From positions 1 to 53,081 of IMG/VR virus record IMGVR_UViG_3300046517_000961: a stretch of DNA of 53,081 nt; one strand, 5' to 3'. Source of the DNA: a virus. This document shows positions 3,054 to 46,690 of the stretch, piece after piece. The first letter of the stretch is position 1. The number at the start of each line of letters is the position of its first letter. The notes under the pieces are model-generated. The model searched no databases, was not told the DNA's origin, and saw only the letters and a program-made list of their open reading frames with translations. The position numbers were made by a program, and so were the translations under genes.

Positions 3054-3055
3054 GA

Positions 3056-10404: not shown

Positions 10405-10724
10405 GGCGCCCGCTTGGCCTCGACCCATGACTCGCCGAGCCGCTTGATCACGCCGAGATCGTGCGTCTTGGCGGCCTCGACGAGCTCGCCGAAGCGATCC
10501 GGCTTGAAACACGCGAAGCAGCCCAGGCGCGCGAGGTTCGCGACGTCGCCGCCGGCCTTGTCGTACGCCGTGTCGTCGCACGTGACGGCCTGAAAGAGCG
10601 CGATCTGCACGCAGATCAGCAGCGCCCGCCAGGGATCCATCGGCCCGTACCGTGCCTGAGACAGCAGCAGCCGTTGATGCGTCAGGCACAGATCCGGCAT
10701 GACGATCGTCGGCCTCTCCGTCAC
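10401..10724 (-). CDS. Hypothetical protein with Cys pairs
   Basis: 107 aa. Early CLTH and central GCFACFKPD could together form a zinc site; the rest is helical (WRALLICVQIALFQAV, FGELVEAAKTHDLGVIKRLGESW). ATGA overlaps at both ends tie it to the ParB-like gene upstream. No family recognised. Confidence 0.65.
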   Translation of the reverse strand: MTERPTIVMPDLCLTHQRLLLSQARYGPMDPWRALLICVQIALFQAVTCDDTAYDKAGGDVANLARLGCFACFKPDRFGELVEAAKTHDLGVIKRLGESWVEAKRAP

Positions 10725-13003: not shown

Positions 13004-15592
13004 TCACGCCGTCGCCTCGGCCGTCTGCGGCCAGGTGATCGCGTCGTACGGCGGCAGCGTGACCGTGAGCCGGCCGCCTTGTACGAGGATCTGCGCATCG
13101 GCCTCGGCCGCCACGGCTGGATTGTGCGTCACGAAAAACACGTGATCGAAGCCGCCGCGCTCGTGCACGCGCCGAAGCATCGTCATATAGCGCAGGGCCG
13201 TATCGGGATACAGCGCGCTCGTCGTCTCGTCGCGGAAGCACGTCCGGATCGCGATGCGACTGTGATCGTTCACGTGCAGCGCGAGCGCGCACTTCACGGC
13301 CTCGTCGACGAGGATCTTTTCGCCGCCGCTGAGATCGCCGATGTCACGCGCGTGCCGGCTGTCGGTCGCATCCCATACTTTCATCTCGAAGACTTCTTTA
13401 AGGCCGCCTTTCGCGCGCGCGTCCTGCGTCACGATCTCGATCGTGAATCGCTGCGAGCCGTAGCACGTCGCCAGCAGATCATTCGCCCGCTCACTCACGA
13501 GCGGGCCCGCGGCGTCGATCTCGAGCGTCGGCAGCCCGTCGCGTGACGTCGCGGCCGCCAGAAACGACCATTCGACGAGCTCGCGATCGAGCGCGACGAG
13601 CGCGGCCTGCACGGCCTCGAGCTCGACGCGCCGGCGCTGAAAGTCGTCGACACGGGCCCGGGCGGCCGCAGCCTCGGCGGTCAGCCGGGCGCGCATCTCT
13701 ACGGCGGCCCGCTGCTCGGCCTCGCGCTGCGCGAGCTGCGCGATCGCGGCCGCCGCCCGGTCGGCGGCGCCGGCGTCGGCCGCGGCCTGGCCGGCGAGCT
13801 GCTCGAGCGCCCGCTCGGCCGTTTGGACGCGCTGCAGGGCCTCGGCACGCCGGGCCTTGATACCGTCGAGCCGGCCGACGTGCTCGGCCTGTAGGGCCGC
13901 TGCGGCCCGCTCAGCGTCCGCCAGGAAGTCGGCCCGGTCGGCCTCGAGCTGCTGCCGCTGCTCGGCCGCGATGGCCTTCGCGCTCGTCGCCGTGAGCGAC
14001 GAGATCGCGATCGCCTTCGTGAGCTCGACGTCGAGCGCCTCGAGATCCTTCGCGAGCTCGTCGGCCCGATCCTGCGCCGTCGCCAGGCGCGCGACACGGT
14101 CGCGGGTCTTATTGCGATCATGATCGAGGATGGCCGCTTCGGTGTCATAGAGCGCCACGTCCGCCGCGCTCAGCGCGGCCCGTGCGATGCGGAAGGCCTC
14201 GACGGCGCGCGCGAGTCTTGGCTGAGCCTCGTCGCAGCGTCGCTGCGTCGCCTCGAGCGCCGGAATCGAGGCACGGGCCTCGGCCGCTTGACGGACGAAG
14301 GCGCAGGCCGCTTCGGCGCATTTCGCCCCGAACGGCACGCGGTCAATCAAGGCCGCCGAGGCGCGCGCCGTCTCTAGCGTGCGACTCACGTCGAGATCGT
14401 GCACGGCCTGCTGCGCCGCGTCGCGTTCTCGGTTCCCCTGATCGACGGCCGCCTGCGCGTCGGCCAGCGTGCGCCGCTGCTGATCGCGCGTTGCCTCGAG
14501 CTGCGCGAGCGCGGCGCCGGCGGCCTTGATCTCTGCGGCCCGCGCCAAGATGTCGCGATTGTTCGCGAGCCGCGCCTCACGGTCGGCCCTGGCGACGCTA
14601 TGCGTCGTGCGCGCATCGCCGACGCGGGCCTCATGCCCGGCGTCGAGCGCCTCGTCGGTCGGCAGCCGGCGCCCCTGCTCGAGCAGCCGCTCGAGCAGCG
14701 TCTCGAGCCGGCCGGCCTGCGCACGGTTCGCCGTTTGATAGACGCCATGCTCGAGCACAAGATCGGCCTCGAGGCGCGTCACGTCGGCCTCGGCGCCGCG
14801 CTGCTGCTCCTGTAGACGCGTCCGCTCGGCGACGCGACCGGCGACGGCGTGCTGCTCGTCGACCGCGGCCGCGGCCGCCTGCCGGGCGTCGGCGACGTCG
14901 CGCACGAGCCGCTCGAGCCAGGCGCCGGCGTCGGTCAGCTCGACCTGTAGCCGCTGGCCGTCGGCCTCGAGGGCCGCGGCGAGCGCCGGCGCCGTCTCGG
15001 CGGCCAGCCGGGCGCCGAGTACCTCGAGCGCCGCCTTGCGTTTCTCGACGGCGCGCACGAGCTCGAGCGCGGCTATCGACCAGGCCTCATACTGGCCGAG
15101 GCCGAGCAGCTCTTGAAAGAGCTCCTTGCGCTCGCGCGCGCTCAGATCTGAAAACGAGCCGCGGCGATTCTGCGCCGCGAAGGCCGTCGCGAGCAGGACC
15201 GGCAGCGACGGAAACCGGCGATCGACTTCCGGCGCGTAGGTCGACACTTTGCCGTCGTTGAGCGGCCGCCAGCCGCCGGCGATCCACGCGGACAGCGTCG
15301 CCGCGCTCTTGTGCGTCTGCCCGTCGATATTCACCCGGGCCCGGTACGGCGTGTCGAGCGTATAGTCGGCTTCGATGTAGGCCTCACGCTGATTCGTGTA
15401 GTACGACAGGTCTTTCTCGCGCGTCGGGAATTGCCGATGCAGCGCCGCGATCGCGCATTCAATCAAGCCCGTTTTGCCTTCGCCGTTCGGGCCGACGATG
15501 GCGACGACGCCGCGCGGCAGCGTCGACGCGTCGAGCGTCACGGCCTCGCGAAACGTAAAGAGGCCCTTCACAGTCAGACGATCGAGTCTCAT
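13004..15592 (-). CDS. sbcC: SbcC/Rad50-like SMC-family ATPase
   Basis: 862 aa. Walker A GPNGEGKT near residues 34-41 follows the usual RLTVKGLFTFREAVTLD start. A long Ala/Arg/Glu-rich coiled coil occupies about 180-690. The ABC signature LSGGEK is near 780 and a Walker B-like segment, FRDETTSAL, follows, with VFFVTHNP as the His switch. The mid-coil Cys pair is CAEAAC, not the CxxC of a canonical zinc hook. With the SbcD-like gene it should process DNA ends or hairpins during replication and recombination. The small zinc protein between the two is unusual. Confidence 0.92.
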   Translation of the reverse strand: MRLDRLTVKGLFTFREAVTLDASTLPRGVVAIVGPNGEGKTGLIECAIAALHRQFPTREKDLSYYTNQREAYIEADYTLDTPYRARVNIDGQTHKSAATLSAWIAGGWRPLNDGKVSTYAPEVDRRFPSLPVLLATAFAAQNRRGSFSDLSARERKELFQELLGLGQYEAWSIAALELVRAVEKRKAALEVLGARLAAETAPALAAALEADGQRLQVELTDAGAWLERLVRDVADARQAAAAAVDEQHAVAGRVAERTRLQEQQRGAEADVTRLEADLVLEHGVYQTANRAQAGRLETLLERLLEQGRRLPTDEALDAGHEARVGDARTTHSVARADREARLANNRDILARAAEIKAAGAALAQLEATRDQQRRTLADAQAAVDQGNRERDAAQQAVHDLDVSRTLETARASAALIDRVPFGAKCAEAACAFVRQAAEARASIPALEATQRRCDEAQPRLARAVEAFRIARAALSAADVALYDTEAAILDHDRNKTRDRVARLATAQDRADELAKDLEALDVELTKAIAISSLTATSAKAIAAEQRQQLEADRADFLADAERAAAALQAEHVGRLDGIKARRAEALQRVQTAERALEQLAGQAAADAGAADRAAAAIAQLAQREAEQRAAVEMRARLTAEAAAARARVDDFQRRRVELEAVQAALVALDRELVEWSFLAAATSRDGLPTLEIDAAGPLVSERANDLLATCYGSQRFTIEIVTQDARAKGGLKEVFEMKVWDATDSRHARDIGDLSGGEKILVDEAVKCALALHVNDHSRIAIRTCFRDETTSALYPDTALRYMTMLRRVHERGGFDHVFFVTHNPAVAAEADAQILVQGGRLTVTLPPYDAITWPQTAEATA

Positions 15593-15822
15593 GATCGCTC
15601 CGATTCTTCGACTAATCGAAACACCTCGCGATCATTGACCACGTTCGGCCGCTCGCCAGGATTCAGAGCCGCATGAAGAAACCAGACAAAGGCCCCGCAC
15701 GCGTCGCAGCGGTGCGTCTGCGTGCCGTACCACTTCCACCTATGAGGACTACCAGTCATCGGACACGGATCCGTCGTGCGCCCTGCGTCAATCTTTATCA
15801 GTGGAATTAGTGGAATTCTCAT
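15589..15822 (-). CDS. Small zinc-binding protein inserted in the sbcDC operon
   Basis: 77 aa. CPMTG..H, then THRCDACGAFVWFLH gives Cys/His pairs compatible with one zinc site. ATGA overlaps on both sides place it between the SbcD-like and SbcC-like genes, so the three are translated together. It could be a complex subunit or specificity factor; no family is known to me for it. Confidence 0.7.
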   Translation of the reverse strand: MRIPLIPLIKIDAGRTTDPCPMTGSPHRWKWYGTQTHRCDACGAFVWFLHAALNPGERPNVVNDREVFRLVEESERS

Positions 15823-17177
15823 GGCAGCAGCTCCCGCCCAATTTCGGCAATGCGTGATAATGCCTCATGCTGCCAGTCTGCGCAAGGCCGATCGTCGAGC
15901 TGCGCCGCCTTGCCGGCCAGCGCCGGCGTCCACTCGAGGCCCTGCCGCCGGGCGTAGGCCTCGAGCTTCGCGACGAGCGTCGGCGCCGCGACGACGTCCG
16001 GCGCGCGGATCTCGCGATCCTGCGCCGGCACGGCCTCGATCTTCAGGCTACGCGCCTCGGCGAATTCGGCGTGAATGTGCGCGACGTTGAGCGCGGCCGC
16101 CTCGGCCCGTTTGTAGGTGTAGCGGACGCGCACGTCGGCGCCCGTGAACCTCGTCGGCAACGGATCGCCTAGTTCGATCGTGTGAACCGTGATCGGCGAT
16201 CCGCCGACGATCCGATATGTGAACCCAAACGGCGAGAGCTCGCCCTCGATCTGAAACATCGCCGGCACGTGCAGCGGCTCGAACCGCCAGCCGTTGAACG
16301 CCAGGCCCGGGCCCATCCGGTTCTCGCGCCAGCGTGCAACGACGACGCCCTTCGGCTCGAGCTCGCCGAAGTCCATGCGGCAGATCGATCCGGCATAGAC
16401 GGCGCGCCCGATCGCTTGATGCTTATGAATGTGATTCATCGCGACATAACAGTCGGGCGGCAGCCGCTCGAGCATCGCGGCGTCGAGCTCGATGTCATTC
16501 CCGATCTGCGGCTGTCCCACGCTCGAGATCGCGCCGGCGATATTCGCGTGCCCGGCGAAGACTTTCAGGGCCCACGGGCCCGCGGCCTCGAGCTCCGCGG
16601 CCGCCTGCACGACAAGGCCGTCGAGGGCCGCGCGCGCCGCCTGGCTGATCTCGTCGGGCGGCGTGCCGGCGGCGACGAGCGCGGCCTTGTTCGGATACGG
16701 CAGCGTGAAGACGGCGAGATCCATCCGGCGCGATGGCGCGTTGAGCGCATCGCCGTACCGATTCGGGCCGAGGATCGGCGTCTCGATCCGCAGCAGCTCC
16801 GGACGCTGCGACACGTAAATCGGGTGCAGGGTATTCAGCCGTGCGAAGACGTCGAGCTCGCCCGGCAGATCGTGATTCCCGCGCACGATCACGACCGGCG
16901 CGAGCTCGGCCATTGCGATCGCGCGCGCGTGCAGCGCGTTCCGCGTGTCCGGCTCGCTCACCGAATGAAATAGATCGCCGGGCCAGATCCAGGCGGCGAG
17001 GGCGCGCGCTGAGCCTGGCTCGCCGGCGGCATAGACGCGATCCGGCTCGACGTTCTCGAGCGCGATGCGTCGCCCGATGGCGAGGGCGGCGTCGAGCGCG
17101 GCGAGCTGATCGTGACTGCGGGCGTCGACGCGGGCGTGCGTGTCGCCGATATGAATGATCGCAATGCTTCCCGGCAT
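15819..17177 (-). CDS. sbcD: SbcD/Mre11-like nuclease (metallophosphoesterase)
   Basis: 452 aa. The five metallophosphoesterase motifs appear in order: GDTH (11-14), GDLF near 67, RGNHD near 98, AGHANIAGA near 205, and NHIHKHQ near 245. They bind two Mn ions and cut DNA ends. The C-terminal 150 residues form the capping domain. AAGGAG lies just before the ATG at 17177. It is followed by the zinc protein and the Rad50-like ATPase, its expected partner. Confidence 0.92.
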   Translation of the reverse strand: MPGSIAIIHIGDTHARVDARSHDQLAALDAALAIGRRIALENVEPDRVYAAGEPGSARALAAWIWPGDLFHSVSEPDTRNALHARAIAMAELAPVVIVRGNHDLPGELDVFARLNTLHPIYVSQRPELLRIETPILGPNRYGDALNAPSRRMDLAVFTLPYPNKAALVAAGTPPDEISQAARAALDGLVVQAAAELEAAGPWALKVFAGHANIAGAISSVGQPQIGNDIELDAAMLERLPPDCYVAMNHIHKHQAIGRAVYAGSICRMDFGELEPKGVVVARWRENRMGPGLAFNGWRFEPLHVPAMFQIEGELSPFGFTYRIVGGSPITVHTIELGDPLPTRFTGADVRVRYTYKRAEAAALNVAHIHAEFAEARSLKIEAVPAQDREIRAPDVVAAPTLVAKLEAYARRQGLEWTPALAGKAAQLDDRPCADWQHEALSRIAEIGRELLP

Positions 17178-33403: not shown

Positions 33404-34119
33404 TCAATTCAGCGTACGCCCCAGGCGCAGGGCCTCGGCCTGCGCGACGACGGCCTCGTGATCCCGCGCCGCCTGCTCGAGCTCTTGCGGCCCGGGCGTC
33501 GGCCATAAGAGCGACCGCAGGGACGGCATACGCGGCTGTCTGGACAGCGCCGCCGTCCACCATGCCGCCGTGAGCCTCGCGACGTCGTCGCGCCGCCTGG
33601 CGGCCCGTACGGCCCGCTCCGCTTCGCCCAGGGTCAGCCCCCAGGCGCGCGATTCTGTTAGCCCGGCGCCGAGGCAGACGTCGAGGTACTCGCGCCAGAA
33701 TCGCGCCCGTCCAAAGGGCTTGGGTCGAGCTCCTTCGCCGGCGGCGGCGGCGACGCCGGCGGCGTGTCCGGCTTCGGCCCGACGAGCGCCTCGAGCAGCG
33801 CCCGCGTGATCATCGTGCCGTGCTGGCCGACCCAGTCCTCGAGCGACGGCGCCTCGGCCCCATCGAAGAGGCCGGCCGTCCGCTCGAGCGTCCAAATCGG
33901 ATGCCGATTGAACATCCGCAGCCGGGCGCCCTCGAGGCCGGCGGCGATGAGCGCGATCGTGTCGCGGAGTCGAATGCCGCCCGATCGCATCCGGTCGCGA
34001 AACGTCCAGAAGGCTTCGTCGGTCAGCTCTTCGAGATGGCACAAGGCCGCCGTCGTAAAGACGATCTTGTACGTGTCGTCGCCGATCGGTAGATCCTGTA
34101 GCTTGCCCTGCATCCCCAT
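33404..34119 (-). CDS. Tail assembly chaperone, long form made by -1 frameshift (G-T type)
   Basis: Joined product of about 238 aa: 136 codons of the 33658-34119 frame, then a -1 shift at CCCTTTG (33712-33718) and 102 codons to 33404. The second part (ARFWREYLDVCLGAGLTESRAWGLTLGEAE...) has clear coding character but no start of its own; the 212-aa frame in which it lies begins with low-complexity shadow. This is the lambda G/GT arrangement. The long form should bind the tape measure and tube subunits during tail assembly. The tape measure gene follows in the transcript. Confidence 0.85.
33658..34119 (-). CDS. Tail assembly chaperone, short form (G type)
   Basis: 153 aa from the ATG at 34119 with GGGAG upstream. 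IVFTTAALCHLEELTDEAFWTFRDRM and IRLRDTIALIAAGLEGARL match the helical chaperone pattern found before tape measure genes. The last 28 residues are low-complexity (GASTSTSASAPG) after a proline-rich stretch, which is what one expects downstream of a frameshift site. It is the majority product that coats the tape measure. Confidence 0.85.
   Translation of the reverse strand: MGMQGKLQDLPIGDDTYKIVFTTAALCHLEELTDEAFWTFRDRMRSGGIRLRDTIALIAAGLEGARLRMFNRHPIWTLERTAGLFDGAEAPSLEDWVGQHGTMITRALLEALVGPKPDTPPASPPPPAKELDPSPLDGRDSGASTSTSASAPG
33712..33718 (-). promoter_or_regulatory. -1 ribosomal frameshift site CCCTTTG
   Basis: In the chaperone frame the reading is AGC CCT TTG, giving an X XXY YYZ heptamer (C CCT TTG). 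Both tRNAs can re-pair one base back on CCC and TTT. After the shift reading continues as GGA CGG GCG, entering the long open frame to 33404. Downstream RNA structure was not calculated. Confidence 0.8.
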
Positions 34120-34161: not shown

Positions 34162-34572
34162 CTACTGCCAGGCGCCGTCGACGGCCAAGCCGATCGAGAT
34201 CACGGCCGCGCCCTGATCGGGGAAATTCCCGTCGAGCGATGTCACGATCGCGCTCGACTGCTCGAGCTTGCTCCCGCCCTGATAGCGGCCGACCGTGATC
34301 GCCGTGCCGGCGCGCATCGCATCGCGGAGTCGGCCGTAGCCGCTCGCCGTCGGCACGTAGAGATGCGACAGCGTGACGTCTGAGCTGTAGCGCCCGGCGA
34401 TGATCCGCCGGTTCCGACTGATCTTGCTCGACACGTCGATCGCCGCGGTCGCTTCCTTAAAATCGACGTTCCGCTGCGACCCGACGACGACGAGCGTCCC
34501 GAAGCCGTTGTCGACGTACAGCAGGACGTCGGTACCATTCATTTCGCCGAACGGGCCCGTGGGTAGAGGCAT
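34162..34572 (-). CDS. Major tail tube protein, copy 1 (downstream)
   Basis: 136 aa, start MPLPTGPFGEMNGTDVLLYVD. LVVVGSQRNVDFKEATAAIDVSSKISRN and SSDVTLSHLYVPTASGYGRL follow the TP901-1/phi13-type tail tube pattern: beta strands with a hairpin rich in Ser and Asp. It differs from the gene at 34617-35027 at only two residues (Ala for Asn and Gln for Glu near residues 95-101). It lies just before the chaperones, the normal location for the tube gene. Confidence 0.85.
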   Translation of the reverse strand: MPLPTGPFGEMNGTDVLLYVDNGFGTLVVVGSQRNVDFKEATAAIDVSSKISRNRRIIAGRYSSDVTLSHLYVPTASGYGRLRDAMRAGTAITVGRYQGGSKLEQSSAIVTSLDGNFPDQGAAVISIGLAVDGAWQ

Positions 34573-34616: not shown

Positions 34617-35027
34617 TTACTGCCAGGCGCCGTCGACGGCCAGCCCGATCGAGATCACGGCCGCGCCCTGATCGGGGAAATTCCCGTCGAGCGACGTCAC
34701 GATCGCGCTCGACTGCTCGAGCTTGCTGCCGCCTTCGTAGCGACCGACCGTGATCGCCGTGCCGTTGCGCATCGCATCGCGCAGTCGGCCGTAACCGCTC
34801 GCCGTCGGCACGTAGAGATGCGACAGCGTGACGTCTGAGCTGTAGCGCCCGGCGATGATCCGCCGGTTCCGGCTGATCTTGCTCGACACGTCGATCGCCG
34901 CGGTCGCTTCCTTAAAATCGACGTTCCGCTGCGACCCGACGACGACGAGCGTCCCGAAGCCGTTGTCGACGTACAGCAGGACGTCGGTACCGTTCATTTC
35001 ACCGAATGGGCCCGTGGGTAGAGGCAT
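34617..35027 (-). CDS. Major tail tube protein, copy 2 (upstream)
   Basis: 136 aa, 134 identical to the adjacent copy at a shift of 455 bp. By hand I count about 17 base differences in 411, mostly third-position, including TAA versus TAG stops. So the copies are old enough to have silent changes but the proteins are held constant. Both have intact starts and stops. Mixed tubes or gene dosage are possible reasons for keeping both. Confidence 0.85.
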   Translation of the reverse strand: MPLPTGPFGEMNGTDVLLYVDNGFGTLVVVGSQRNVDFKEATAAIDVSSKISRNRRIIAGRYSSDVTLSHLYVPTASGYGRLRDAMRNGTAITVGRYEGGSKLEQSSAIVTSLDGNFPDQGAAVISIGLAVDGAWQ

Positions 35028-35935: not shown

Positions 35936-36263
35936 AAACGGCCTTCATATGCGACTGCGGAATGCTCGGCGCCTGCGTCGAGATCACGCGGTACGTGATC
36001 CCGTCGACGATCAGCCGATCGTTCCGCTGCAGCGGCGTCAGCGGCTCACAGTAAATCGAGAAAAAGTTTTGCGCGACGTTCTCGTCGCCGAACCCCGGAT
36101 CGAAGCCGCCGGCCTTCGACGGCTTCGAGGTTTCGACGCTCACGCGGCACGGCAGCGAGGCCGCCAGCGTGACGGGCGTCGTCGCGTGCTGGCCCTGATC
36201 CGAGCTCGTCGCCGACCGCTGCCAGATCGCCGACCGATTGAGCAGGTGCGAGATTTGGCTCAC
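35901..36263 (-). CDS. Head-tail joining protein
   Basis: 120 aa from a GTG at 36263 that overlaps the preceding TGA (GTGA). The frame upstream of it is shadow. FFSIYCEPLTPLQRNDRLIVDGITYRVISTQ is the beta-barrel core found in head completion/stopper proteins (SPP1 gp16-like, lambda FII-like). It is between the connector and gp10-like genes, as in HK97-type phages. Confidence 0.7.
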   Translation of the reverse strand: MSQISHLLNRSAIWQRSATSSDQGQHATTPVTLAASLPCRVSVETSKPSKAGGFDPGFGDENVAQNFFSIYCEPLTPLQRNDRLIVDGITYRVISTQAPSIPQSHMKAVCEQVERAALLA

Positions 36264-37162
36264 AGATCCCCGCTCATGCTGCGACCGAACGCATACAGCC
36301 ACTCGTCGAGCAGCTCTTGCGGAATGGTGTACAGCCCGGGCGTGAGCGTGTACGAGTAGTCGCCGATCGACTCGGCCGTGATCCGCGGATCGGGCCGGTA
36401 TGTCGCGTTGTACCAGGCCTTGACAACCTTCGCGGCGATCGCGCTCGCGCTCGGCGGCAGCGTTTGCACGGCGACGCTCGAGCTCGCGTCGCCGACGTCG
36501 TCGGCGAGCAGCTCGAGGAACGTCACGACGTCGTCGCTGCGCGCGAGCACGGTGAACGGCCCGGCATTGTGCGGAAAGGCGACGACGACGCTGTCGCCGC
36601 TCACGAGCAGCGGCCAAACCGGCGCGCCGACGCGTCGCGTGATCGTGCGGCCGCTCGCGCTCACGAGATAGCCCGATGCCGCGACGTTGTCGCCCGGCAG
36701 CAGGTACCCGCCCCAGTACGTGAACTTCCAATCTTCGCGGCTGCGGCCCGGCAGCGCGTCGCGCACGATGCCGACCGGCAGATAGCCGGTCGCGACCCAG
36801 GTTTGATACCGAAAGAGCAGGCCGGCCGCCGGATCGATGAGCTCCCATTGCGGGATGTCCGGATCGTCGGTGTTTTCGATCGGATCGTTGCGCCAGATCA
36901 CCGAGTCGAGCTCGACGACGGGCGTCAGCGACAGCAGCATGGACGTGCTGTCGGTCCCTTGCTTCGCTTCGCGCACCTGGCCGCGGGCGAGCTGCCGGCC
37001 GCCCTGGCGCGGCAGCGCGTCGGACGCTTCGACAATGAGCTGCTGCAGGAACGCATCGCGCGCCGCGTCGACGCTGTCGCTGGCGATGCGGAGCTCTTGC
37101 TTCACGCGCGCGAGCGTCGTGATCGCCGTCGTCTGCGGCCGGGTGAGGTAAACGATATTCAC
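36260..37162 (-). CDS. Head-tail connector (adaptor) protein, extended
   Basis: 300 aa from a GTG at 37162 (GTGA overlap with the 40-aa gene). ITTLARVKQELRIASDSVDAARDAFLQQLIVEASDAL is the helical start of gp6/adaptor-like connectors, and IPQELLDEWLYAFGRSM is a closing helix. The 160-residue middle is beta-rich (FTYWGGYLLPGDN, DSVVVAFPHNAGPFTVL) and makes it about twice the usual adaptor length. The insert may be an external domain. Confidence 0.75.
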   Translation of the reverse strand: MNIVYLTRPQTTAITTLARVKQELRIASDSVDAARDAFLQQLIVEASDALPRQGGRQLARGQVREAKQGTDSTSMLLSLTPVVELDSVIWRNDPIENTDDPDIPQWELIDPAAGLLFRYQTWVATGYLPVGIVRDALPGRSREDWKFTYWGGYLLPGDNVAASGYLVSASGRTITRRVGAPVWPLLVSGDSVVVAFPHNAGPFTVLARSDDVVTFLELLADDVGDASSSVAVQTLPPSASAIAAKVVKAWYNATYRPDPRITAESIGDYSYTLTPGLYTIPQELLDEWLYAFGRSMSGDL

Positions 37163-37281
37163 TTGGGCGCCTTCGGCGTCGGCTGCGGCGGCCGCGCCGG
37201 CGGCGGAATGTCCGACTTCGGCCCGGGCCGCTTGATCGCCGGCGACGGCATTTGTCGATTCACGGGCGGCGTATAGCTCAT
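37159..37281 (-). CDS. Proline-rich micro-protein (40 aa)
   Basis: Read by hand: MSYTPPVNRQMPSPAIKRPG and a tail of PPP, PP and KAPK, about one third proline. The ATG at 37281 overlaps the glycosyltransferase stop (ATGA) and the TGA overlaps the connector GTG (GTGA). It is probably disordered. I know no function. Confidence 0.6.
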   Translation of the reverse strand: MSYTPPVNRQMPSPAIKRPGPKSDIPPPARPPQPTPKAPK

Positions 37282-38486
37282 GCGGCCGCCTGCGGCCGCG
37301 CCGCCCAGGCGAGCTCACGCCCGATCACCTGCTCGAATTGATCGGCGACGTTATCCCAGTCGTAGGCCGACTGCGTCGCGACCCGGTACGCCGCCTCGCC
37401 GAGTGCGGCACGCCGGGCCGGATCGCGATAGAGCCGGTCGATCGCCTCGGCGACGTCGTCGACCGCCGGCGCGCCGCCGATCGTATTGATGCCGTCGCCC
37501 GTCACCATGAAGTCGCGCGCCGGCACGAATTCGGCCGCGCCGTCGAGCCACTCGCCGAGCGCCGAGTAACGCGTCACGAGCTGCGCGATCCGGCAGGCGG
37601 CGCCCTCGAGATGCGGCAGGCCCCATCCTTCCCCGTACCCGGTATTGAGCTGCACGTCGAGCGCGCTGTAAATCAGCCGCATGACGTGCTCCTTGACGCC
37701 GCAGCCGGGCTGATGCTGCGTCGAGCTGAAGATCACGCGCCCCGTCCCACGGCTGCCGGTCAGCCGGCAGAGTCTCGAGCGCGCCAGGGCGGCCAGGTCG
37801 GCGCCGTCGTCGGCGTTCGCGCAATGCAAAAACAAATGGGCATCCGACGGCCGGCCGGCCGCATGCCACCACGCCGCGAACGCGCGGACGGTAATGTCGA
37901 GCCGCTTGCGCCGCGAATTCCGATTGACGTTGCCGACGACGAAGGCGTCCGGCGCGATCGGCAGCTTCAGCAGGCGGCGCGCCTCGAGGCGATCGACCGG
38001 GAAGTACTGCGCCAGGTCGACCGCATGCGGAATGATGGCCGACGGGCCGACGTACCCCTCGCGCTCGGCTTCGGCCTGGCCGAATCGGGTGTACCAGACC
38101 GCGCAGGCGAGGCCGTTGAGATCGCGGGCCCGCTTCATAGACGGCGCGTCGACCGGCAGATAGCCGATCAGCGGCACGCCCATCTTGCGCGTCACGATGA
38201 GGAATTCCGCCACGATCCACGGATCGTTATTGATCACGATCACGTCGGGCCGCACGCGCTGAATCGTGGCCGGCAAGATGCCGAGGCCGAACGCATCGCC
38301 GCCGAGCGTGACCGGGTGAATATCGTACGGATAGTGCCGCGCGGCCGCGTCGCCGTAATAGTTCACGCCGAGCACGCTCACGTCGAGGCCGCCGGCCGCG
38401 ACGAGCCGGTCGACGACGTTGTGCGTGATCCGGGCAAACCCCGTATGCTTCACGGCGTCGCCGATCCAGAGCACTTTCTTACGCAT
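37278..38486 (-). CDS. Glycosyltransferase, GT4-like (GT-B fold)
   Basis: 402 aa. The N-terminal domain begins KVLWIGDAVKHTGFARITHNVV; the C-terminal domain has FVVGNVNRNSRRKRLDITV and GEGWGLPHLEGAACR, the E-x7-E-type nucleotide-sugar motif of GT4 enzymes. The final helix is DQFEQVIGRELAW. Acceptor and sugar cannot be read. It is one of four glycosyltransferase-like genes inserted between the decoration-like protein and the connector. Confidence 0.85.
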   Translation of the reverse strand: MRKKVLWIGDAVKHTGFARITHNVVDRLVAAGGLDVSVLGVNYYGDAAARHYPYDIHPVTLGGDAFGLGILPATIQRVRPDVIVINNDPWIVAEFLIVTRKMGVPLIGYLPVDAPSMKRARDLNGLACAVWYTRFGQAEAEREGYVGPSAIIPHAVDLAQYFPVDRLEARRLLKLPIAPDAFVVGNVNRNSRRKRLDITVRAFAAWWHAAGRPSDAHLFLHCANADDGADLAALARSRLCRLTGSRGTGRVIFSSTQHQPGCGVKEHVMRLIYSALDVQLNTGYGEGWGLPHLEGAACRIAQLVTRYSALGEWLDGAAEFVPARDFMVTGDGINTIGGAPAVDDVAEAIDRLYRDPARRAALGEAAYRVATQSAYDWDNVADQFEQVIGRELAWAARPQAAA

Positions 38487-39393
38487 CGAGCAGCTCAGTC
38501 CAGAAACGCGCCGCCAGCGTCGGCCAGTCGAACCGTTGCCGCACGTGCTCGCGTTCGGCCGCCCTCACGCGCCGATACGGGCCGTCGAGCACGCGCCCGA
38601 CGCCCTCGAGGATCGTCGGCGTGTCGCCCTCGGCGATGTATTCCGCATGCTCGCAAAACCAGCGCCGATAATGCGGCGCGTCGAAACAGATCGGCCGCGT
38701 GCCGCAGACGAGGCCCTCGAGCGCCGGCAGCTCGAAGCCTTCGATCCGCCGCAGGCCGGACACGTACCGACATTCCTGCCAGCGCCGCGCCAGGCAGCCG
38801 TCGGAAATCCCGAGCATTGACGTGACGTGTCCGCCGAGGCCGAGATCGGGCCCGAGGTGAAACATCTCGAGGCCGCGCGCGCCGCAGGCGGCCGCGACCG
38901 CGTCGACCGACTCGTCGCCGGCGAGAAAACCGGACGTGCCGACCGCATAGCGGCCGAAGGCCGGCGCCGCGTCGCCGGCGGCCGCGAAGGCCGCGTCGAC
39001 GCCGAGCGGCTGCATGAGAAAGCGCGGCGTCTCGTAGGCCTGGCCGTCGACGTGCGGCGGCAGCTCGTCGCGCAGCACGCCGGCCAGATCGTAATAGCTC
39101 CAGACGAGCCGCGCCGCCGCCCAGTACGGCAGCCAGGCGGCCGCGGTCGGCGTTTCGCTCGTGCGGAAACAGTATTGAATGATCGCGATCTCGCGATCGA
39201 AGACGGGCTCGGCCGGCACGCAGCCGCGGCCGATCACGTGCAGGATCTCGAGCTCGGCCTGCTCGCGCCGCGGCATGATCACGACGCCCGCCGGCGCGTG
39301 CCGGGTGAGCGCCTGCGCGACGCGTTGAATGCCGAGGCTAATACCAGGCCGCGGCGCCAGAAAGACGCGCAGCGGGCCGCGTGCGCCCGTCAC
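38479..39393 (-). CDS. Glycosyltransferase-like protein (GT-B)
   Basis: 304 aa from a GTG at 39393 (GTGA overlap); the 90 residues the frame adds upstream are shadow. LRVFLAPRPGISLGIQRVAQALTRHAPAGVVIM is an N-terminal Rossmann start. RYVSGLRRIEGFELPALEGLVCGTRPICFD contains the GFELPALEG nucleotide-sugar signature. The N-terminal domain is short. Probably acts with the adjacent transferases. Confidence 0.75.
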   Translation of the reverse strand: MTGARGPLRVFLAPRPGISLGIQRVAQALTRHAPAGVVIMPRREQAELEILHVIGRGCVPAEPVFDREIAIIQYCFRTSETPTAAAWLPYWAAARLVWSYYDLAGVLRDELPPHVDGQAYETPRFLMQPLGVDAAFAAAGDAAPAFGRYAVGTSGFLAGDESVDAVAAACGARGLEMFHLGPDLGLGGHVTSMLGISDGCLARRWQECRYVSGLRRIEGFELPALEGLVCGTRPICFDAPHYRRWFCEHAEYIAEGDTPTILEGVGRVLDGPYRRVRAAEREHVRQRFDWPTLAARFWTELLDA

Positions 39394-40064
39394 AGGTGCA
39401 CCACGCGACGCGTCGGATCGACCCACAACGATCCGCCCTGCTCGTAAATCGAGCGGCCGAGGCCGCGCACGAGATCGTCGGGCCCAAACCGCACGGCCCG
39501 GGCGAGCGCGCCCGTCATGACTTGGCACGAGCCGGCCGAGTCGATCTGCGTCAGGCCGGCCTCGAGGGCCCGGTGATAGGGCGGAAACGGCCCGAAATTC
39601 TCGCCGTTTTTGATATGGCCCCAAATGTCGTAGAAGTCGCCGACGGCGGTAAAACACATCGGCGCGATGGCCGGGTGCGCCGCGTCGAGCTGATCGATCA
39701 GGCCGATCATGGTCGCGGCATCCCAGGCGAGATCCATCTCGACGTAGACGAAGACGTCGACGGTCGGCTCGAGGGCCTCGAGCACGCCGTTACAGACCCA
39801 CGATAGGGCCTTCCAACGGGCCGGATCGTCGACGCTGCCCCAGGCCGGGCCGCCGTGCGCCCGTTTGATCACCTGCGCGCGTCGGCCGGCCGTGAAGTCG
39901 TGCAGACGTGACCAGGTATCGTCGAGGCTGTCACCTTCGGCGATCACGAGCACGAGCTGATCGCCGCGGGCGGCGAGCGAAGCCTCGAGCGCGTCGACCT
40001 GGCCGAAGTACCGCGGCAGATAGTGCGCGCCGTTGCGGACCATGCCGCCGAGCGCGACGATCAT
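39390..40064 (-). CDS. Glycosyltransferase-like protein (GT-A)
   Basis: 224 aa. MIVALGGMVRNGAHYLPRYF, LVLVIAEGDSLDDTW and VFVYVEMDLAWDAATMIG form the strand-DxD-like arrangement of GT-A enzymes, with EMD as the likely metal site. GHIKNGENFGPFPPYHR and QVMTGALARAVRFG follow. It resembles the capsule-associated mannosyltransferase-like group. ATGA overlap with the GT2-like gene. Confidence 0.7.
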   Translation of the reverse strand: MIVALGGMVRNGAHYLPRYFGQVDALEASLAARGDQLVLVIAEGDSLDDTWSRLHDFTAGRRAQVIKRAHGGPAWGSVDDPARWKALSWVCNGVLEALEPTVDVFVYVEMDLAWDAATMIGLIDQLDAAHPAIAPMCFTAVGDFYDIWGHIKNGENFGPFPPYHRALEAGLTQIDSAGSCQVMTGALARAVRFGPDDLVRGLGRSIYEQGGSLWVDPTRRVVHL

Positions 40065-40792
40065 GCCGTCACCTGCTCAGCGGCGCCGCTGCGAATGATG
40101 TCGTCGAGGCCGAGCGGCTCGCAGAGCCGCAGGAAGTCGTACGAGTGCGACTGGCGCCAGATCCCGCGGCCGATCGTATTGCCGCCGAACGTCACCTCGC
40201 GCCGCCATTTCCGCTCGTAATTGACGCGCGCGATCTCATGCCGGTGATGATACTCGCCAATCTGATCGGGCGCGTAGCCTTTCATGGTCCCGTTACACAA
40301 ATGCTGAATCCCGCACGTCGCGACCGTCGGGTGAATGCCGGCGAGCGCGAGCCGGTCTTCGTAGTCGACGTCGACGTACCGAAAGTACAACGGGCTGATC
40401 GTCGGATCGTAGAGGCCGACGAGCTCCCGGCAGCGATCGCGGTACGTCATGACGCCGAGCGAGTCGTCGATCAGAAAGTCGCCGGGCGTCGCGACGAATC
40501 GCGCGAGGCTGTCGGGCGCGAAGACGACGTCCTCGTGCGCGATCACGCGCTCTTCGCCGACGTGCTGGAGGTACCAATTCACGGCGGCCGCCTCGCAGCC
40601 CCTCGAGGCGCCCAGGTCGATCCGCGTGATCGGACACGTGACGACGTCGAGCGCGGCCTCGAGCCGTTCGGGTGAGGCCGCCTGATCGATCAGGTACATC
40701 CGATCCGGCCGCAGCGTGCCCTCGAAGACTGAGCGCAGCATGCCGGCGAGTAAGTCTTGTCGATTGAACGTGGTAACGCAGAGATTGATCAC
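40061..40792 (-). CDS. Glycosyltransferase family 2-like protein
   Basis: 243 aa. INLCVTTFNRQDLLAGMLRSVFEGTLRPDRMYLIDQA is the standard GT2 opening. RGCEAAAVNWYLQHV and VIAHEDVVF, with D as the metal-binding acid, follow. FRYVDVDYEDRLALAGI matches the later acceptor-site region. It begins the four-gene glycosyltransferase run just after the parS site. The acceptor could be a virion protein or a host glycan. Confidence 0.8.
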   Translation of the reverse strand: MINLCVTTFNRQDLLAGMLRSVFEGTLRPDRMYLIDQAASPERLEAALDVVTCPITRIDLGASRGCEAAAVNWYLQHVGEERVIAHEDVVFAPDSLARFVATPGDFLIDDSLGVMTYRDRCRELVGLYDPTISPLYFRYVDVDYEDRLALAGIHPTVATCGIQHLCNGTMKGYAPDQIGEYHHRHEIARVNYERKWRREVTFGGNTIGRGIWRQSHSYDFLRLCEPLGLDDIIRSGAAEQVTA

Positions 40793-40820: not shown

Positions 40821-40838
40821 GTGTTCCACGTGGAACAC
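40821..40838. promoter_or_regulatory. parS-type ParB binding site
   Basis: GTGTTCCACGTGGAACAC is a perfect 18-bp palindrome. Its core TGTTCCACGTGGAACA (40822-40837) is of the chromosomal parS class (B. subtilis consensus TGTTNCACGTGAAACA). It lies in the 109-bp gap between the decoration-like and GT2-like genes, beside a strong hairpin. The phage encodes a ParB-like protein at 10721-12121. I found no second perfect copy. Confidence 0.9.
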
Positions 40839-40839
40839 A

Positions 40840-40871
40840 GCGGCGGCCCGCATTGTATGCCGGGCCGCCGC
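40840..40871. repeat. Strong hairpin beside parS
   Basis: GCGGCGGCCCG (40840-40850) and CGGGCCGCCGC (40861-40871) are perfect 11-bp complementary arms with a 10-nt loop that can pair further through CAT/ATG. It starts 2 bp from parS. There is no T-run on either side, so a role as RNA processing or transcription attenuator is uncertain. Confidence 0.55.
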
Positions 40872-40901
40872 CGTCGTGCTAACTGATTCTGCCGTCGACG
40901 C

Positions 40902-41402
40902 TTACGTCGTCGCGGCAGCGTTCGGCAGCGCCTCGAGCCCGCCCAGGGCGGCCGCGGCCGAGAACTTGACCGTATCCGTCCCCGACCGGCTCAGCGTCGG
41001 CGTCAGCGACAGCCGGACGTATTCGCTCGCCGCGCCCAGGTCGACGTCGACCTCGATCTCAGCGTAGACGACGCTGCCGTCGTTGTTGCCCGTGATCGTC
41101 GTCGCGGCCGGATCGTTCACGCCGTCGACGCCGTAATCGGTGTACGTCGAGTCGTCCGGGCTCGACTCGACGACGGGCTGCACGATCGCCGTCTGCCCCG
41201 ATCCGAGCGTCGCCGCCGCGACGATGATGTACTTCAGCGACATTGGCAGACGATTCAGAAATCGGTCGATGCTCTGCCCGACTTGCTTCACGCCCGATCC
41301 GCCGTTGCCCGCGCCGACCGTGATCGGTGCGAGTGCGTTCTTGCCCTTGAGGTACGCGCCGACGTTCTGCGCGACCGATCCCCCGGCTCCCGGTTCTTTC
41401 AT
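40902..41402 (-). CDS. Probable capsid decoration/minor virion protein
   Basis: 166 aa. AAGGAG lies 7 bases before the ATG at 41402, a strong ribosome site that implies high expression. The N-terminal half is helical, followed by YIIVAAATLGSGQTAIVQP and SVVYAEIEVDVDLGAASEYVRLSLTPTLS, a beta-sandwich. A gene placed directly after the major capsid gene with such a site is usually a head decoration or tail tube-like protein. Family not recognised. Confidence 0.6.
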   Translation of the reverse strand: MKEPGAGGSVAQNVGAYLKGKNALAPITVGAGNGGSGVKQVGQSIDRFLNRLPMSLKYIIVAAATLGSGQTAIVQPVVESSPDDSTYTDYGVDGVNDPAATTITGNNDGSVVYAEIEVDVDLGAASEYVRLSLTPTLSRSGTDTVKFSAAAALGGLEALPNAAATT

Positions 41403-41476: not shown

Positions 41477-42685
41477 TTACCAGGCGACGTCTTTCAGAAT
41501 CGCGATCGCGAGATCGTGTCGCGCGACGAGATCCACTTCGTTGATCACGCGGAGCAGCGTGAGATCGCGCTGAAACGCCGAGATCGTCTTGCCGGCCGCG
41601 TCGACGAATGTCGCGTCCTCGGAGAGCGCGATCTGGAGCTGCGGCCCCTGGCCGAGCGCGAGCTCGTCGCCGTCGGCGAGATAGACCTCGCTCTTGACGT
41701 TGCCGGCGCCGAGGTTCACGGGTACCTGCGTCGAGACTTCGTACGGGATCCCGAAGAGCGTCCCCTTCGAGAGCTCGTCGCGATAGACGAAGGCGCCCGT
41801 CGTCGTCTGGATCCCCATCAGCGCGTTGAGCGACCGCGGGGAAAACGTCCACCACGGCTTTGTCATGGCGACGTTAGCCTGCATGAGCTTCGTGATCAGC
41901 CCGAGCAGATCCGGCGTGATCGTCGCGTTCGTGATCCCCGTCGACGCGACGACGTTCGCCGCGTTGGCCCAGTAGCGCAGCCCCTTCGGCGCCGAGCCCG
42001 TGCCATCGCCGCGCAGGAACTTCGAGTCTTCACCGATCGTCATCTGACGCAGCGCGTCATTCCGCACGATGGCCTGCACGCGCGGGCCGCCGCGACGCAT
42101 GAGCGTGTTCGAGACAGGAATCAAGACTTTTTCCTGCTTCGCGATCAGCGCGACTTGACCGAAGGCCTGCTCGGTTTCCGCGATCGCCGCGACTTCCGCG
42201 CCCCACGACACGGCCGCGCCGCTCGTGAGCTTCGGGACGTTGACTTGTCCGGACGAGAGCTCTTGCACGTTGTCGATATGCTTCCGTACCGTCGTGCGCG
42301 GCAGCAGCAGATCGATGATCTCGTCGGACATTTCCGGCGCGAGCAGGAAGCCGCCCGACGCCGCATCGCCCGACGTGAGCGCCTTCGCGATCATCGGATC
42401 GGCCTTGAAGTCTTTCGCGCCCTTCGTCGCCAGGTCGATCGCCTGGCCGACGTTGCCCTTCGTCAGCGCGAGGGCCGCGCAGACGCCGCCGAACGCCAGG
42501 CCGGCGCCCGACGCCGCCTTGCCACGCGCCGCGCTGTCGCGCTCGGCGAGCTCGCGCACCTGATCGGCGCCGCGGGCCCCGATCGTGTCCTGCACGTCTT
42601 TGAGCGCCTTCGCCACGGCCGCCCCGCATTCGTTGCGAATGAAGGCCTGCAGGTCGCTCTTTGTGAGTCTCTTCTCTTCTGCCAT
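41477..42685 (-). CDS. Major capsid protein, HK97 fold
   Basis: 402 aa. A charged helical N-terminal domain of about 100 residues (delta-domain-like, removed by the protease) precedes GGFLLAPEMSDEIIDLLLPRTTVRKHIDNVQEL. Then come WGAEVAAIAETEQAFGQVALIAKQEKVLIPVS, the spine helix and P-loop-type segments of HK97-fold proteins, and FLRGDGTGSAPKGL. GGGAGA lies before the ATG. It follows the protease/scaffold gene, as expected. Confidence 0.92.
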   Translation of the reverse strand: MAEEKRLTKSDLQAFIRNECGAAVAKALKDVQDTIGARGADQVRELAERDSAARGKAASGAGLAFGGVCAALALTKGNVGQAIDLATKGAKDFKADPMIAKALTSGDAASGGFLLAPEMSDEIIDLLLPRTTVRKHIDNVQELSSGQVNVPKLTSGAAVSWGAEVAAIAETEQAFGQVALIAKQEKVLIPVSNTLMRRGGPRVQAIVRNDALRQMTIGEDSKFLRGDGTGSAPKGLRYWANAANVVASTGITNATITPDLLGLITKLMQANVAMTKPWWTFSPRSLNALMGIQTTTGAFVYRDELSKGTLFGIPYEVSTQVPVNLGAGNVKSEVYLADGDELALGQGPQLQIALSEDATFVDAAGKTISAFQRDLTLLRVINEVDLVARHDLAIAILKDVAW

Positions 42686-43742: not shown

Positions 43743-44504
43743 GCTGTCAGCCCTTTCGATGGATGGGGGAAACTTCAGATCGCCGATCGTGAGCACGAGC
43801 GACCGGCCGGCCGGATCGGTGGCGGCGCGCAGCCGCTCGACGGTGTCGCGTTCGCGACGGTCGCGCTGATCGTGCGATTCGCACGTGTCGAGCCATCGCT
43901 CGGCCCAGGCCTTCATCGGCGTGAGCTCGATCCGGGCCGCCTTCGCCTGCGCGAGCGCCTCGGCATTCGCCGGCACGGGCACGCAGCTCCACTCGAGCAG
44001 CTCTTGCCGCTTGAAGTCGATCCCGCCCTTGCGGTCGCTCGACATCTCGTAATCGGTCGGCCGGAAGCCGACGCTGGCCGCGCGCATGTAGCGCCCGGCG
44101 TAGAGCTGAAACATCATGAAGGCAAACGGATAGATCTCGCGCTCGACAAATTGCGCGCGGGCCCAGAGCTCGCCCGGCGTGCCCGGTACATTCCAGACCT
44201 TCACCGATTGCGCAACGGGCGGATTCCATTGATCGTGTCCGAAGAGCACGACCGGATTTTCGATGTAATTCTCGAGCTGCCAGCCGTCGAGCGCGATCGT
44301 GTCTTCCATGCGATCGACGCTGTCGGTCGAAATGCAAATATCGAGCAGCCGATTGACCTTATCGATCGCCCTGACTTCGCGCAGCGCGCCCGACTTCAGC
44401 ACGGCGAGATCGTCGCAGGCCTTCGGCTCGAGGCGTCCGGCCGCGATGCCGAGCGCGAGCTCGTGGAATTTCTGATCCGAGACGAAATTCAAGCGGCTTG
44501 CCAT
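42762..44504 (-). CDS. Prohead protease (S78-like) fused to scaffold-like C-terminus
   Basis: 580 aa from the ATG at 44504 (AAAGGGGA upstream). NPVVLFGHDQWN (about 82-93) supplies the catalytic His, RAASVGFRP (about 138-146) the Ser, and ELLEWSCVPVPANAEAL is the closing family motif. Residues 255-580 are helical and acidic and contain two copies of an ARHSAADL..GK.AA unit, ending LDDFEQFLGMPRDEFRASI. The C-terminal part is scaffold-like, and an internal ATG at 43742 may start a separate scaffold. Confidence 0.88.
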   Translation of the reverse strand: MASRLNFVSDQKFHELALGIAAGRLEPKACDDLAVLKSGALREVRAIDKVNRLLDICISTDSVDRMEDTIALDGWQLENYIENPVVLFGHDQWNPPVAQSVKVWNVPGTPGELWARAQFVEREIYPFAFMMFQLYAGRYMRAASVGFRPTDYEMSSDRKGGIDFKRQELLEWSCVPVPANAEALAQAKAARIELTPMKAWAERWLDTCESHDQRDRRERDTVERLRAATDPAGRSLVLTIGDLKFPPSIERADSMTAKHVASVDADYPYACAQGHGHKTALEAQTCDVVKVETPRKDAAGNDEAGEEAAELVQYQAMKAQLVLHASVVASALEQVNALIAAETESPTDTPDGEAAEEAVEDARCSVLLGHCAQLHGSIASLESIVMACMQGEADDVSIGMRSLEARRKSGARHSAADLALGKKAAQHVVDAHGKMVELGFAKPPKSGDKPADDDAADKAAKAGARHSAADLAAGKAAAKCMRDAHGTLVELGFADPMAAADEDPADQEEADTPADETDDQKSARVASLSDDADFGGLLDDEPEELDDFEQFLGMPRDEFRASIHDAVKDSIDAARGRIVD

Positions 44505-46690
44505 GCGATCCCCTTTTTCTGCGCGTGCGCAAACGCGGCCAGGACGGCCGCGCGCTGCTGAGAGAACCCGCGGCGCAGCGCGGCCGTGAGCTGTTTCTCG
44601 AAGGCCCGCCGATCGCTGTCAAATGACTTCCAATGTGCGACGCGCTGCACGGCCTCGGCCTTGCCCGGTATGACGGGAATCACGCCGCATCGGCAATTAC
44701 AATCTTCCGCCGGCACGCCGAAGTCGCCCGGGTACATGGCTTGTTCGCCGCTCGCCGGATCCTCGAAGACGTCGTCGATCGCGACGATCTGCGCATCGAG
44801 ATCGACGTGACTCGCCTCGTCGGTATCGCGCACGCGGCCGTCTTGCGTCGAGAGCCACTCTTTTTCCTCGACGTCGCCCTGGCGCATCGCCTCGACGGCG
44901 GCGAAGTTGGACGCGCGCACGATCTCGGTGCGGGCGATCAACAGGGCCCGAGCGCCGCTCGCCTGATCGAAGACGTCGCCGATCGCCGTGGCGATCTGAT
45001 CCATCGTGTCGCCGTCTTTCAGGCCCGACGTAATCGCGCCGCGGATCGCCGTCTTCGTCGTCTCGTTCACGAGGCCCGTAATCCGATCGCCGCCCCAGTC
45101 GTCGAGGAAGCTGCGGACCTTCGGATCCTCGACGTCGAAGTCCTCGCTCGAGAGCTCGTCGGCGGTCGCGGCATCCTGGCCGGCCTTCCGGCCTGGCCTC
45201 GAGGCCTTCGGCGCGATCAGGCCCATCGTCGCGTTGCCGAAATGCGCGACGGTCGCGTCGATGGCCGGCTGCGCCTGATCGATCAGCAGATCCGGATCGC
45301 ACGCGTTCGCGACCGTGGCCGCGCTCGAGGCCGTGAGCGCCCGCCGGCGTCGGCCGCTCTTGTTCGGCGGCACGTCGGACGCCGGCACGTCGGCGACGGG
45401 CGCCGGCAGCGCCGGCTCGTCGGGCGTCAGCCGACGCACGATCGACTGCGCGAACGGAATCGCGAAGACATCGCCGCCGGCGTTCGCGAGACTCGCGAGG
45501 CCCATCTTCGCCCGCCACTCGTCGATCTTCGCGGCCCAGGGCTGCGCCTTCATGACCTCGAGCTCGAACGTGCGATCTTCCTGTACGGGCGTGTCATACA
45601 GCAGCACGATCCGCTCGTCGAATTGCGGCACGAGCGTTTTCTGCCAGGTCGCGCGCAGGAACTCGAGCCGCGGCACGGTGACAAAGCGGCCCATCATGTA
45701 GTCGGCCGCGTCGATCGTGCTGCGATTTGAATTCTCGACAATGCCGAAGCATTCCGGCGGCACGCCCCACGTCTGGATCACGATGTCGCGCTCGTGCTTT
45801 CGCAGCTCGATCAACTGCATATTCTCGAACGTCTGCGAGAGCGGCTGTACCGTCACCTCGCGATTCAAGAAAAGCGGCAGCCAGTGTTTCATGTAGCCCT
45901 GAAAGCGATTTTTCCAGCTCGTTTCGATGCGCGTCCGCTCGGTTTCGTCAAATTTGCCCGTGATCAAAACTTCCGGCATCGCGCGATTTGTAAACCACGT
46001 TTTAACGTGCTTCGCGGTGTACTCGTCCGTCTCGAGCTCGTCGCCGAGCGTCATGCCGAGGCCGCTGCCGCGGCTGTAGGGATTCTGCGGATCCGGGTGA
46101 TAGTGCCAGAGCACTTGATCCGTCGGGATCTCCGTACTCCCGCCGGGCGCGAAGATTTGAAACGTGTTCCGGTCCTTCGTCGGGATCTGGATCACCCAGG
46201 TTGCCGGAATCGGGTAGCACGCGATCGGCATGTTGAGCGCGTCGCGCTCGATGAGCCAGGCGGCCTCGCCGATCAGATCGAGGTACTGCGTCGTCAGCTC
46301 GCGAATCGTGTGCCCGTGGAAAAACGGATTTGTCGCGCCGCCGTCGAGGAAGTCGAGGATCGGGTGATTCGGCAGCTCGCGCAGCTCGCCCTGATCCTTC
46401 AAGCGGCCGAGCAGCTTCGCGCGCTCGACGAGGCCGGCGCGCTGCAGCCGGCGATCGAGTACGGCCTTGCCCTTCGACGTCGGCACGCAGGCATGCCAGG
46501 CGACGTGTCCGACGGCGCGGCCGGTCTTATCCGCGACGGCCCGCAGCCAGGGGAGCTCGTTGTATGCCCGCAAAAGCTGGCGCGTGCCGAGCCGCGGCAT
46601 CCGGCCGTAGGCCTGGCCGGCATACAGCACGGCCGACAGGACATCGGATCCGAGCGTCTTGACGGCGGCCTTCGCGAGCCATTCACGCAT
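44489..46690 (-). CDS. Portal protein fused to MuF-like head morphogenesis domain
   Basis: 733 aa. Residues 1-430 are portal (YNELPWLRAVADKTGRAVG, WHYHPDPQNPYSRGSGLGMTLGDELE, VIQTWGVPPECFGI). After a basic linker, residues 540-690 are a Mu gpF/SPP1 gp7-like domain: ARTEIVRASNFAAVEAMR (near 583), EKEWLSTQDGRVRD and EDCNCRCG (near 663). These are usually two adjacent genes. The stop overlaps the protease start by 16 bp. No strong ribosome site was seen before the ATG at 46690. Confidence 0.88.
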   Translation of the reverse strand: MREWLAKAAVKTLGSDVLSAVLYAGQAYGRMPRLGTRQLLRAYNELPWLRAVADKTGRAVGHVAWHACVPTSKGKAVLDRRLQRAGLVERAKLLGRLKDQGELRELPNHPILDFLDGGATNPFFHGHTIRELTTQYLDLIGEAAWLIERDALNMPIACYPIPATWVIQIPTKDRNTFQIFAPGGSTEIPTDQVLWHYHPDPQNPYSRGSGLGMTLGDELETDEYTAKHVKTWFTNRAMPEVLITGKFDETERTRIETSWKNRFQGYMKHWLPLFLNREVTVQPLSQTFENMQLIELRKHERDIVIQTWGVPPECFGIVENSNRSTIDAADYMMGRFVTVPRLEFLRATWQKTLVPQFDERIVLLYDTPVQEDRTFELEVMKAQPWAAKIDEWRAKMGLASLANAGGDVFAIPFAQSIVRRLTPDEPALPAPVADVPASDVPPNKSGRRRRALTASSAATVANACDPDLLIDQAQPAIDATVAHFGNATMGLIAPKASRPGRKAGQDAATADELSSEDFDVEDPKVRSFLDDWGGDRITGLVNETTKTAIRGAITSGLKDGDTMDQIATAIGDVFDQASGARALLIARTEIVRASNFAAVEAMRQGDVEEKEWLSTQDGRVRDTDEASHVDLDAQIVAIDDVFEDPASGEQAMYPGDFGVPAEDCNCRCGVIPVIPGKAEAVQRVAHWKSFDSDRRAFEKQLTAALRRGFSQQRAAVLAAFAHAQKKGIAWQAA

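Follow-up and report, generated by a model that had tools for sequence, protein, structure and literature searches.

Why would a phage carry four glycosyltransferase (GT) genes in the midst of its virion operon, and what would their products glycosylate? The question is raised by IMGVR_UViG_3300046517_000961, a metagenomic record; the window analysed here is this entire virus record of 53,081 bases, with open reading frames (ORFs) called mechanically. Four GT ORFs, designated GT1 to GT4, are present on the - strand at 37278-40792, codirectional with the virion genes. The late operon on that strand runs in the order terminase, portal, protease, capsid, a 166-residue protein, GT1-GT2-GT3-GT4, a 40-residue ORF, head–tail adaptor, neck and tail genes. 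Our answer, to which we assign a probability of roughly 0.6, is that late in infection the GT enzymes assemble a short glycan, with a virion protein as its acceptor. A virion target is favoured because the cassette is linked to head–tail genes and because the gene overlaps continue through the 40-residue ORF into the adaptor.

All genes of the region lie on the - strand. GT1 (40061-40792; 243 residues, GTG start) is followed by GT2 (39390-40064; 224 residues), GT3 (38479-39393; 304 residues, GTG start) and GT4 (37278-38486; 402 residues). The upstream boundary of the cassette is the 166-residue protein (40902-41402; phrog_5707, 7.6e-6), beyond which is the major capsid protein of the HK97 type (41477-42685; PF05065, 9.4e-39), and the downstream boundary is the head–tail adaptor (36260-37162; phrog_442, 1.9e-10; PF05135, 6.6e-4). 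The initial annotation had placed four GT genes between a decoration-like protein and the connector, and the ORFs, boundaries and position are all confirmed. It had also described the four as coupled by 4-bp overlaps, which is correct for GT1/GT2 (ATGA) and GT2/GT3 (GTGA), but GT3/GT4 overlap by 8 bp. Beyond GT4, the 40-residue proline-rich ORF read from the sequence (37159-37281) overlaps GT4 by 4 bp and the adaptor by 4 bp. The designation decoration-like for the 166-residue protein is plausible by position, but the protein is without an annotated homologue, the function of phrog_5707 being unknown. No promoter-like site was found on the - strand in the gap between this gene and GT1. The cassette has a GC content of 65-72%, compared to 63-68% for the rest of the operon; since these are close, a recent gain of the cassette marked by odd base composition was considered and rejected.

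The fold classes of the four enzymes rest on sequence profiles. The most distinct is GT4, predicted to be a clear family-4 GT-B enzyme by its matches to phrog_2170 (2e-23) and PF13524 (4e-8) and by the E-x7-E motif EGWGLPHLE (E286-E294). Among solved structures it matches chlorovirus B736L (PDB 3oy2) at 4.8e-15 by phmmer with the single sequence and at 7e-44 with the profile. GT3 matches weakly on its own (PF00534, 0.12; phrog_4356, 0.001). The profile of its family does better, hitting the solved GT-B enzyme PDB 7qsg at 2.5e-10, and in a profile–profile comparison it aligns to the GT4 family at 7.7e-9 over the C-terminal part. It carries the E-x7-E motif EGFELPALE (218-226), with E226 conserved in 27/27 family members and E218 in 26/27, and is likewise predicted to be GT-B, with a C-terminal GT-B domain containing that motif. 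The GT2 protein alone gives no match below 0.1. Its placement as a probable GT-A enzyme of the CAP59/Anp1 kind comes through the members of its family (n=24), which match CAP59 (PF11735) in 16/24 cases, PF00535 in 13/24 and Anp1 (PF03452) in 4/24, with a best Anp1 match of 4e-11; in its E-x-D motif (109-111), D111 is conserved in 24/24 and E109 in 22/24. GT1 appears to be a GT-A enzyme of the family-2-like kind. Its match to PF00535 (E 0.0016, 18.9 bits) is under the curated cut-off of 23.3, but that of a relative, in contig L025, is above it (9e-6, 26.2 bits), and GT1 also matches phrog_29879 at 0.0022. It has a metal-site-like HED motif (86-88) and a DxD (141-143), and D88, D141, D143, H164 and H182 are invariant across eight relatives; the search of isolated phages returned no GT1 relatives. 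Since the single-protein and family-profile matches agree with the retained motifs, the earlier division into two GT-B enzymes (GT3, GT4) and two GT-A enzymes (GT1, GT2) is borne out, and the family signature residues are retained in all four. None of the four has a strong hydrophobic or membrane segment (19-residue mean ≤1.28), and the enzymes look soluble.

The setting of these genes can be followed in other phages. Family profiles recovered 80 loci for GT4, 80 for GT3 and 46 for GT2 from IMG/VR; the ORFs of all loci were labelled with profiles built in this analysis, and the maps were then compared. Pfam capsid and portal models gave none or few matches on the relatives' records, and our own profiles together with PHROGs were used instead. 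The closest contigs are one of 17 kb that is near-identical to the window, with proteins 100% identical (L010), and a 6-kb relative with 89% identity in the capsid, 72% in GT1 and 75% in GT2 (L008). More broadly, GT2-GT3-GT4 is a recurrent block in viral contigs, with 67 distinct GT3 genes found. Its commonest downstream neighbours are a neck protein (phrog_5), a connector (phrog_2595) and the window-type adaptor (phrog_442), with the tape measure protein farther on. For 47 of the 67 distinct GT3 homologues, a head–tail connector gene is among the next five genes downstream on that strand. Where at least 4 kb of downstream sequence is available, a connector is near GT3 in 33/44 cases, compared to 25% for ordinary genes of those loci (Fisher 4e-10), and it is near GT4-family genes without GT2 or GT3 in 12/49 (Fisher 1e-6 versus 33/44 for GT3); because the contigs are relatives of one another, these counts cannot be treated as independent and the p-values are descriptive only. 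Exact 4-bp overlaps also recur, in 26/32 cases between GT2 and GT3 and in 28/37 between GT3 and GT4. A second phage, represented by contig L116, also has all four genes in this order, its map reading adaptor-x-GT1-GT2-x-GT3-GT4-neck, and the cassette is kept in virion-gene contexts of phages having different head modules. Coupling and position are thus kept across dozens of relatives, and the arrangement is beyond chance. The initial annotation had called a four-step glycan pathway unusual in a 53-kb phage; this was wrong, with equivalent cassettes in dozens of viral contigs. In contig L012, two GT4-family genes (351-1889 and 2930-4225) flank the adaptor gene, after a homologue of the 166-residue protein.

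Outside viruses, a scan of bacterial genomes with GT3 found only five distant loci, in surface-polysaccharide or surface-protein glycan clusters. One of these, in Cytobacillus massiliigabonensis (L208, 3094-20843), is a distant GT3 relative in a sugar-nucleotide cluster, where it adjoins a collagen-like repeat protein, suggesting a role in surface-protein glycosylation in a bacterium too.

These bacterial relatives bear on an alternative that we regard as unlikely, in which the GTs have as their target a glycan of the host surface, modified in carrier cells or late in infection for superinfection exclusion or release, and are in the late operon for timing only. It gains from the residence of those relatives in surface-polysaccharide or surface-protein glycan clusters, and changes of host serotype by phage GTs are well known, as described in PMC12619734. 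It has difficulty with the lack of a strongly hydrophobic stretch in any of the four enzymes and with the head–tail slot kept by their relatives, and an integrase was looked for in the window and none found. Serotype-conversion modules of the gtr type carry a membrane flippase, a bactoprenol-sugar enzyme and membrane GTs. Unlike these, the window GTs are without membrane segments, no flippase or bactoprenol-sugar enzyme was noticed adjoining them, and their neighbours are virion genes.

The relatives also allow the cassette to be compared on a constant virion backbone, the window type being protease, capsid and the 166-residue protein, with the adaptor farther on, and a portal within reach in most. 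The slot of the 166-residue protein is also occupied in L008, L009, L097, L099, L101, L112 and L191. On this backbone, L097, L099 and L101 have methyltransferase-radical SAM-GT3-GT4, L191 has aminotransferase-hexapeptide enzyme-GT2-GT3-GT4, and L112 has aminotransferase-GT2-GT3-GT4, the front-half domains being called by phrog_3139 (aminotransferase), PF00132 (hexapeptide), PF13578 (methyltransferase) and radical SAM. In L009, a distant relative on the same backbone with a capsid 36% identical, the 166-residue protein is followed by the connector with no GT between. Because the front halves differ on the same backbone and the L009 slot is empty, the cassette appears to be an exchangeable and dispensable insert, with GT3-GT4 as its probable stable core. 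An aminotransferase and a hexapeptide acyltransferase are the usual pair for acylated amino sugars, and the amino-sugar and methylation genes of the relatives fit what might be expected of a decorated glycan. We would tentatively propose, at somewhat less than even odds, that a widespread, modular glycan cassette, in which a GT3-GT4 core is joined to exchangeable front ends for amino sugars, methylation or further GTs, is a standing part of the head–tail block in many uncultured phages, in which glycan coats vary by swapping on a constant capsid, as in a phage serotype.

The same exchangeability can be turned to a different account, in which the head–tail junction is a tolerant insertion slot, or moron site, where the GT targets are varied and position is uninformative about substrate. 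Differing front modules in the same slot on one backbone, the empty slot of L009, and the location of some GT3 homologues elsewhere are what such a slot would produce. Morons usually come with their own promoter and terminator. In the window, by contrast, the genes overlap through into the adaptor with no promoter-like match before GT1, the base composition of the cassette is near that of the operon, and across the contigs the same GT families recur and not a random assortment of genes, all of which makes this account distinctly improbable. It is very doubtful that the GTs glycosylate modified bases in the phage DNA: hypermodification of DNA is a frequent role of phage GTs (Pyle et al. 2024, cited in PMC12619734) and profile searches also show a resemblance of T4 DNA glucosyltransferases to B736L (PMC6024577), but a gene of the thymidylate synthase/hydroxymethylase family (PF00303) is absent from the record, so there is no obvious hydroxymethylated base as sugar acceptor, and the GTs are linked to structural and not replication genes. 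The record does encode an N4/N6 methylase.

Returning to glycosylation of the virion, the cassette would be a phage-borne glycan-assembly unit produced alongside the late virion proteins. GT1 or GT2 may attach the first sugar, in the cytoplasm, to a newly made structural protein, for which the candidates are the capsid, the adjacent decoration-like protein or the tail tube. The remaining GTs would lengthen this into a short chain, which may be branched. Since no sugar-synthesis gene adjoins the four GTs in the window, host nucleotide sugars would presumably be used. That the chain takes four steps is inferred from the gene count. The finished particle would carry a glycan coat, with altered adsorption, stability or recognition. 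This elaborates the earlier proposal that the GTs sugar-coat virion proteins, which is partly supported and the best-backed of the readings, given the embedding of the genes in the late operon, the conserved virion context, the apparent solubility of the enzymes and a mycobacteriophage precedent; none of the structural proteins stood out as the acceptor. The tail tube in this window is encoded by tandem genes on the - strand (34162-34572 and 34617-35027) that are identical at 394/411 bases, and the two proteins differ only at residues 88 and 98.

The precedent is virion glycosylation in Che8, Corndog and Myrna, whose own GTs add sugars to the capsid and tail tube (Freeman et al. 2023, cited in PMC12363180, PMC11600133 and PMC11256854). 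PMC12363180, PMC12619734 and PMC11600133 place the mycobacteriophage glycans at the C-termini of both capsid and tail tube subunits, and describe three tandem GTs after an O-methyltransferase in cluster O phages. The likeness is in the tandem phage GT genes (Che8 gp108-110; the Corndog gp38 cluster), in their coupling by 4-bp overlaps, in the occasional methyltransferase, and in the capsid and tail tube as proposed or proven glycan targets. As read here, Che8 gp108-110 are three GTs with 4-bp overlaps at the right end of the genome, far from the head genes, whereas the window has four, two of them GT-B, between capsid and connector. Searched for orthology to gp108-110, the GT1, GT3 and GT4 profiles give no match, and GT2 reaches 13.5 bits with gp109 in a three-protein search and 31% hhalign probability over 36 columns. 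Because the Che8 genes are not orthologous to GT1-GT4, the likeness would be one of function between separate families, and by this analogy the window cassette probably works like the Che8/Corndog system but outside its gene families.

Other viruses resemble parts of the cassette. Chlorovirus B736L/PBCV-1 A546L (PDB 3oy2) is a virus-encoded GT-B, the closest to GT4 among solved structures, and a chlorovirus builds its own capsid glycan, although this is a giant virus of algae, unlike the tailed phages. Among isolates, Microcystis phage Mae-JY09 has a GT4 homologue (WWT39943.1) in the same slot, reading portal, capsid, small protein, GT, with an adaptor four genes on, but it is only 26% identical and without recognised GT1-GT3 homologues. 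Synechococcus phage S-CBS4, also an isolate, has a GT4 homologue, a GT1-profile homologue (annotated galactosyl transferase) and a methyltransferase (gp014-gp016) between portal and head protease, but about 30% identical, in another order and upstream of the capsid gene. In TJE1, a GT4 relative has nucleotide-sugar genes close by and is placed upstream of the terminase.

Several observations weigh against a virion target. An alignment of the decoration-like protein reveals no acceptor feature, such as a Ser/Thr-rich tail or insert, whose occurrence follows that of the cassette, and its C-terminal tails do not separate phages with GTs from those without. Connector and overlap counts come from related contigs and are not independent, and 20/67 GT3 homologues are without a connector in range. 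GT4-family genes occur in non-virion positions too, as in S-EIVl, where one lies beside a primase. The Che8 GT genes sit at the far genome end, away from the head genes, so a place among the head genes is not a requirement for virion glycosylation. The empty slot of L009 means that glycosylation is not essential to such heads. As for the chlorovirus parallel, the donor and acceptor of B736L are unproven (PMC9614988).

In the papers found for this analysis, virion glycosylation is documented for a few mycobacteriophages only. If our reading is true, sugar-coated virions would be common in environmental phages, with the coat changing by gene-block exchange while the capsid stays constant, and this would bear on phage recognition, on sticking to mucus and biofilm, and on host range and stability as read from genomes. 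A GT3 gene adjoining connector genes would be the marker by which to find such phages.

Between the 166-residue protein gene and GT1, just upstream of GT1, there is a perfect palindrome, TGTTCCACGTGGAACA, at 40822-40837, which we take to match the parS consensus of chromosomal ParB. Directly upstream of it is a strong GC-rich hairpin (40837-40874); it has no T run, so it is not a plain terminator. In L008, a 14-bp core of the palindrome is kept at the same place (4691-4704), after a hairpin of unrelated sequence (about 4654-4684). At least 120 stretches with the same 16-mer are found in viral contigs. The window encodes a ParB (10721-12121, - strand) with ParB_N and helix-turn-helix (HTH) domains and a GERRYRA box, and a search of the window with PF13614 found no ParA-type ATPase.

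Elsewhere on the - strand, the portal gene (44489-46690; PF04860) includes a fused head morphogenesis domain of the Mu F-like kind (PF04233). Two overlapping frames at 33404-34119 precede the tape measure gene. They contain a slippery heptamer, CCCTTTG, at about 33712-33718 in the -1 register, and are a probable tail assembly chaperone frameshift. Finally, an SMC/AAA_23-like gene (13004-15592) and a metallophosphoesterase gene (15819-17177) lie near each other and resemble an SbcC/SbcD-type pair.

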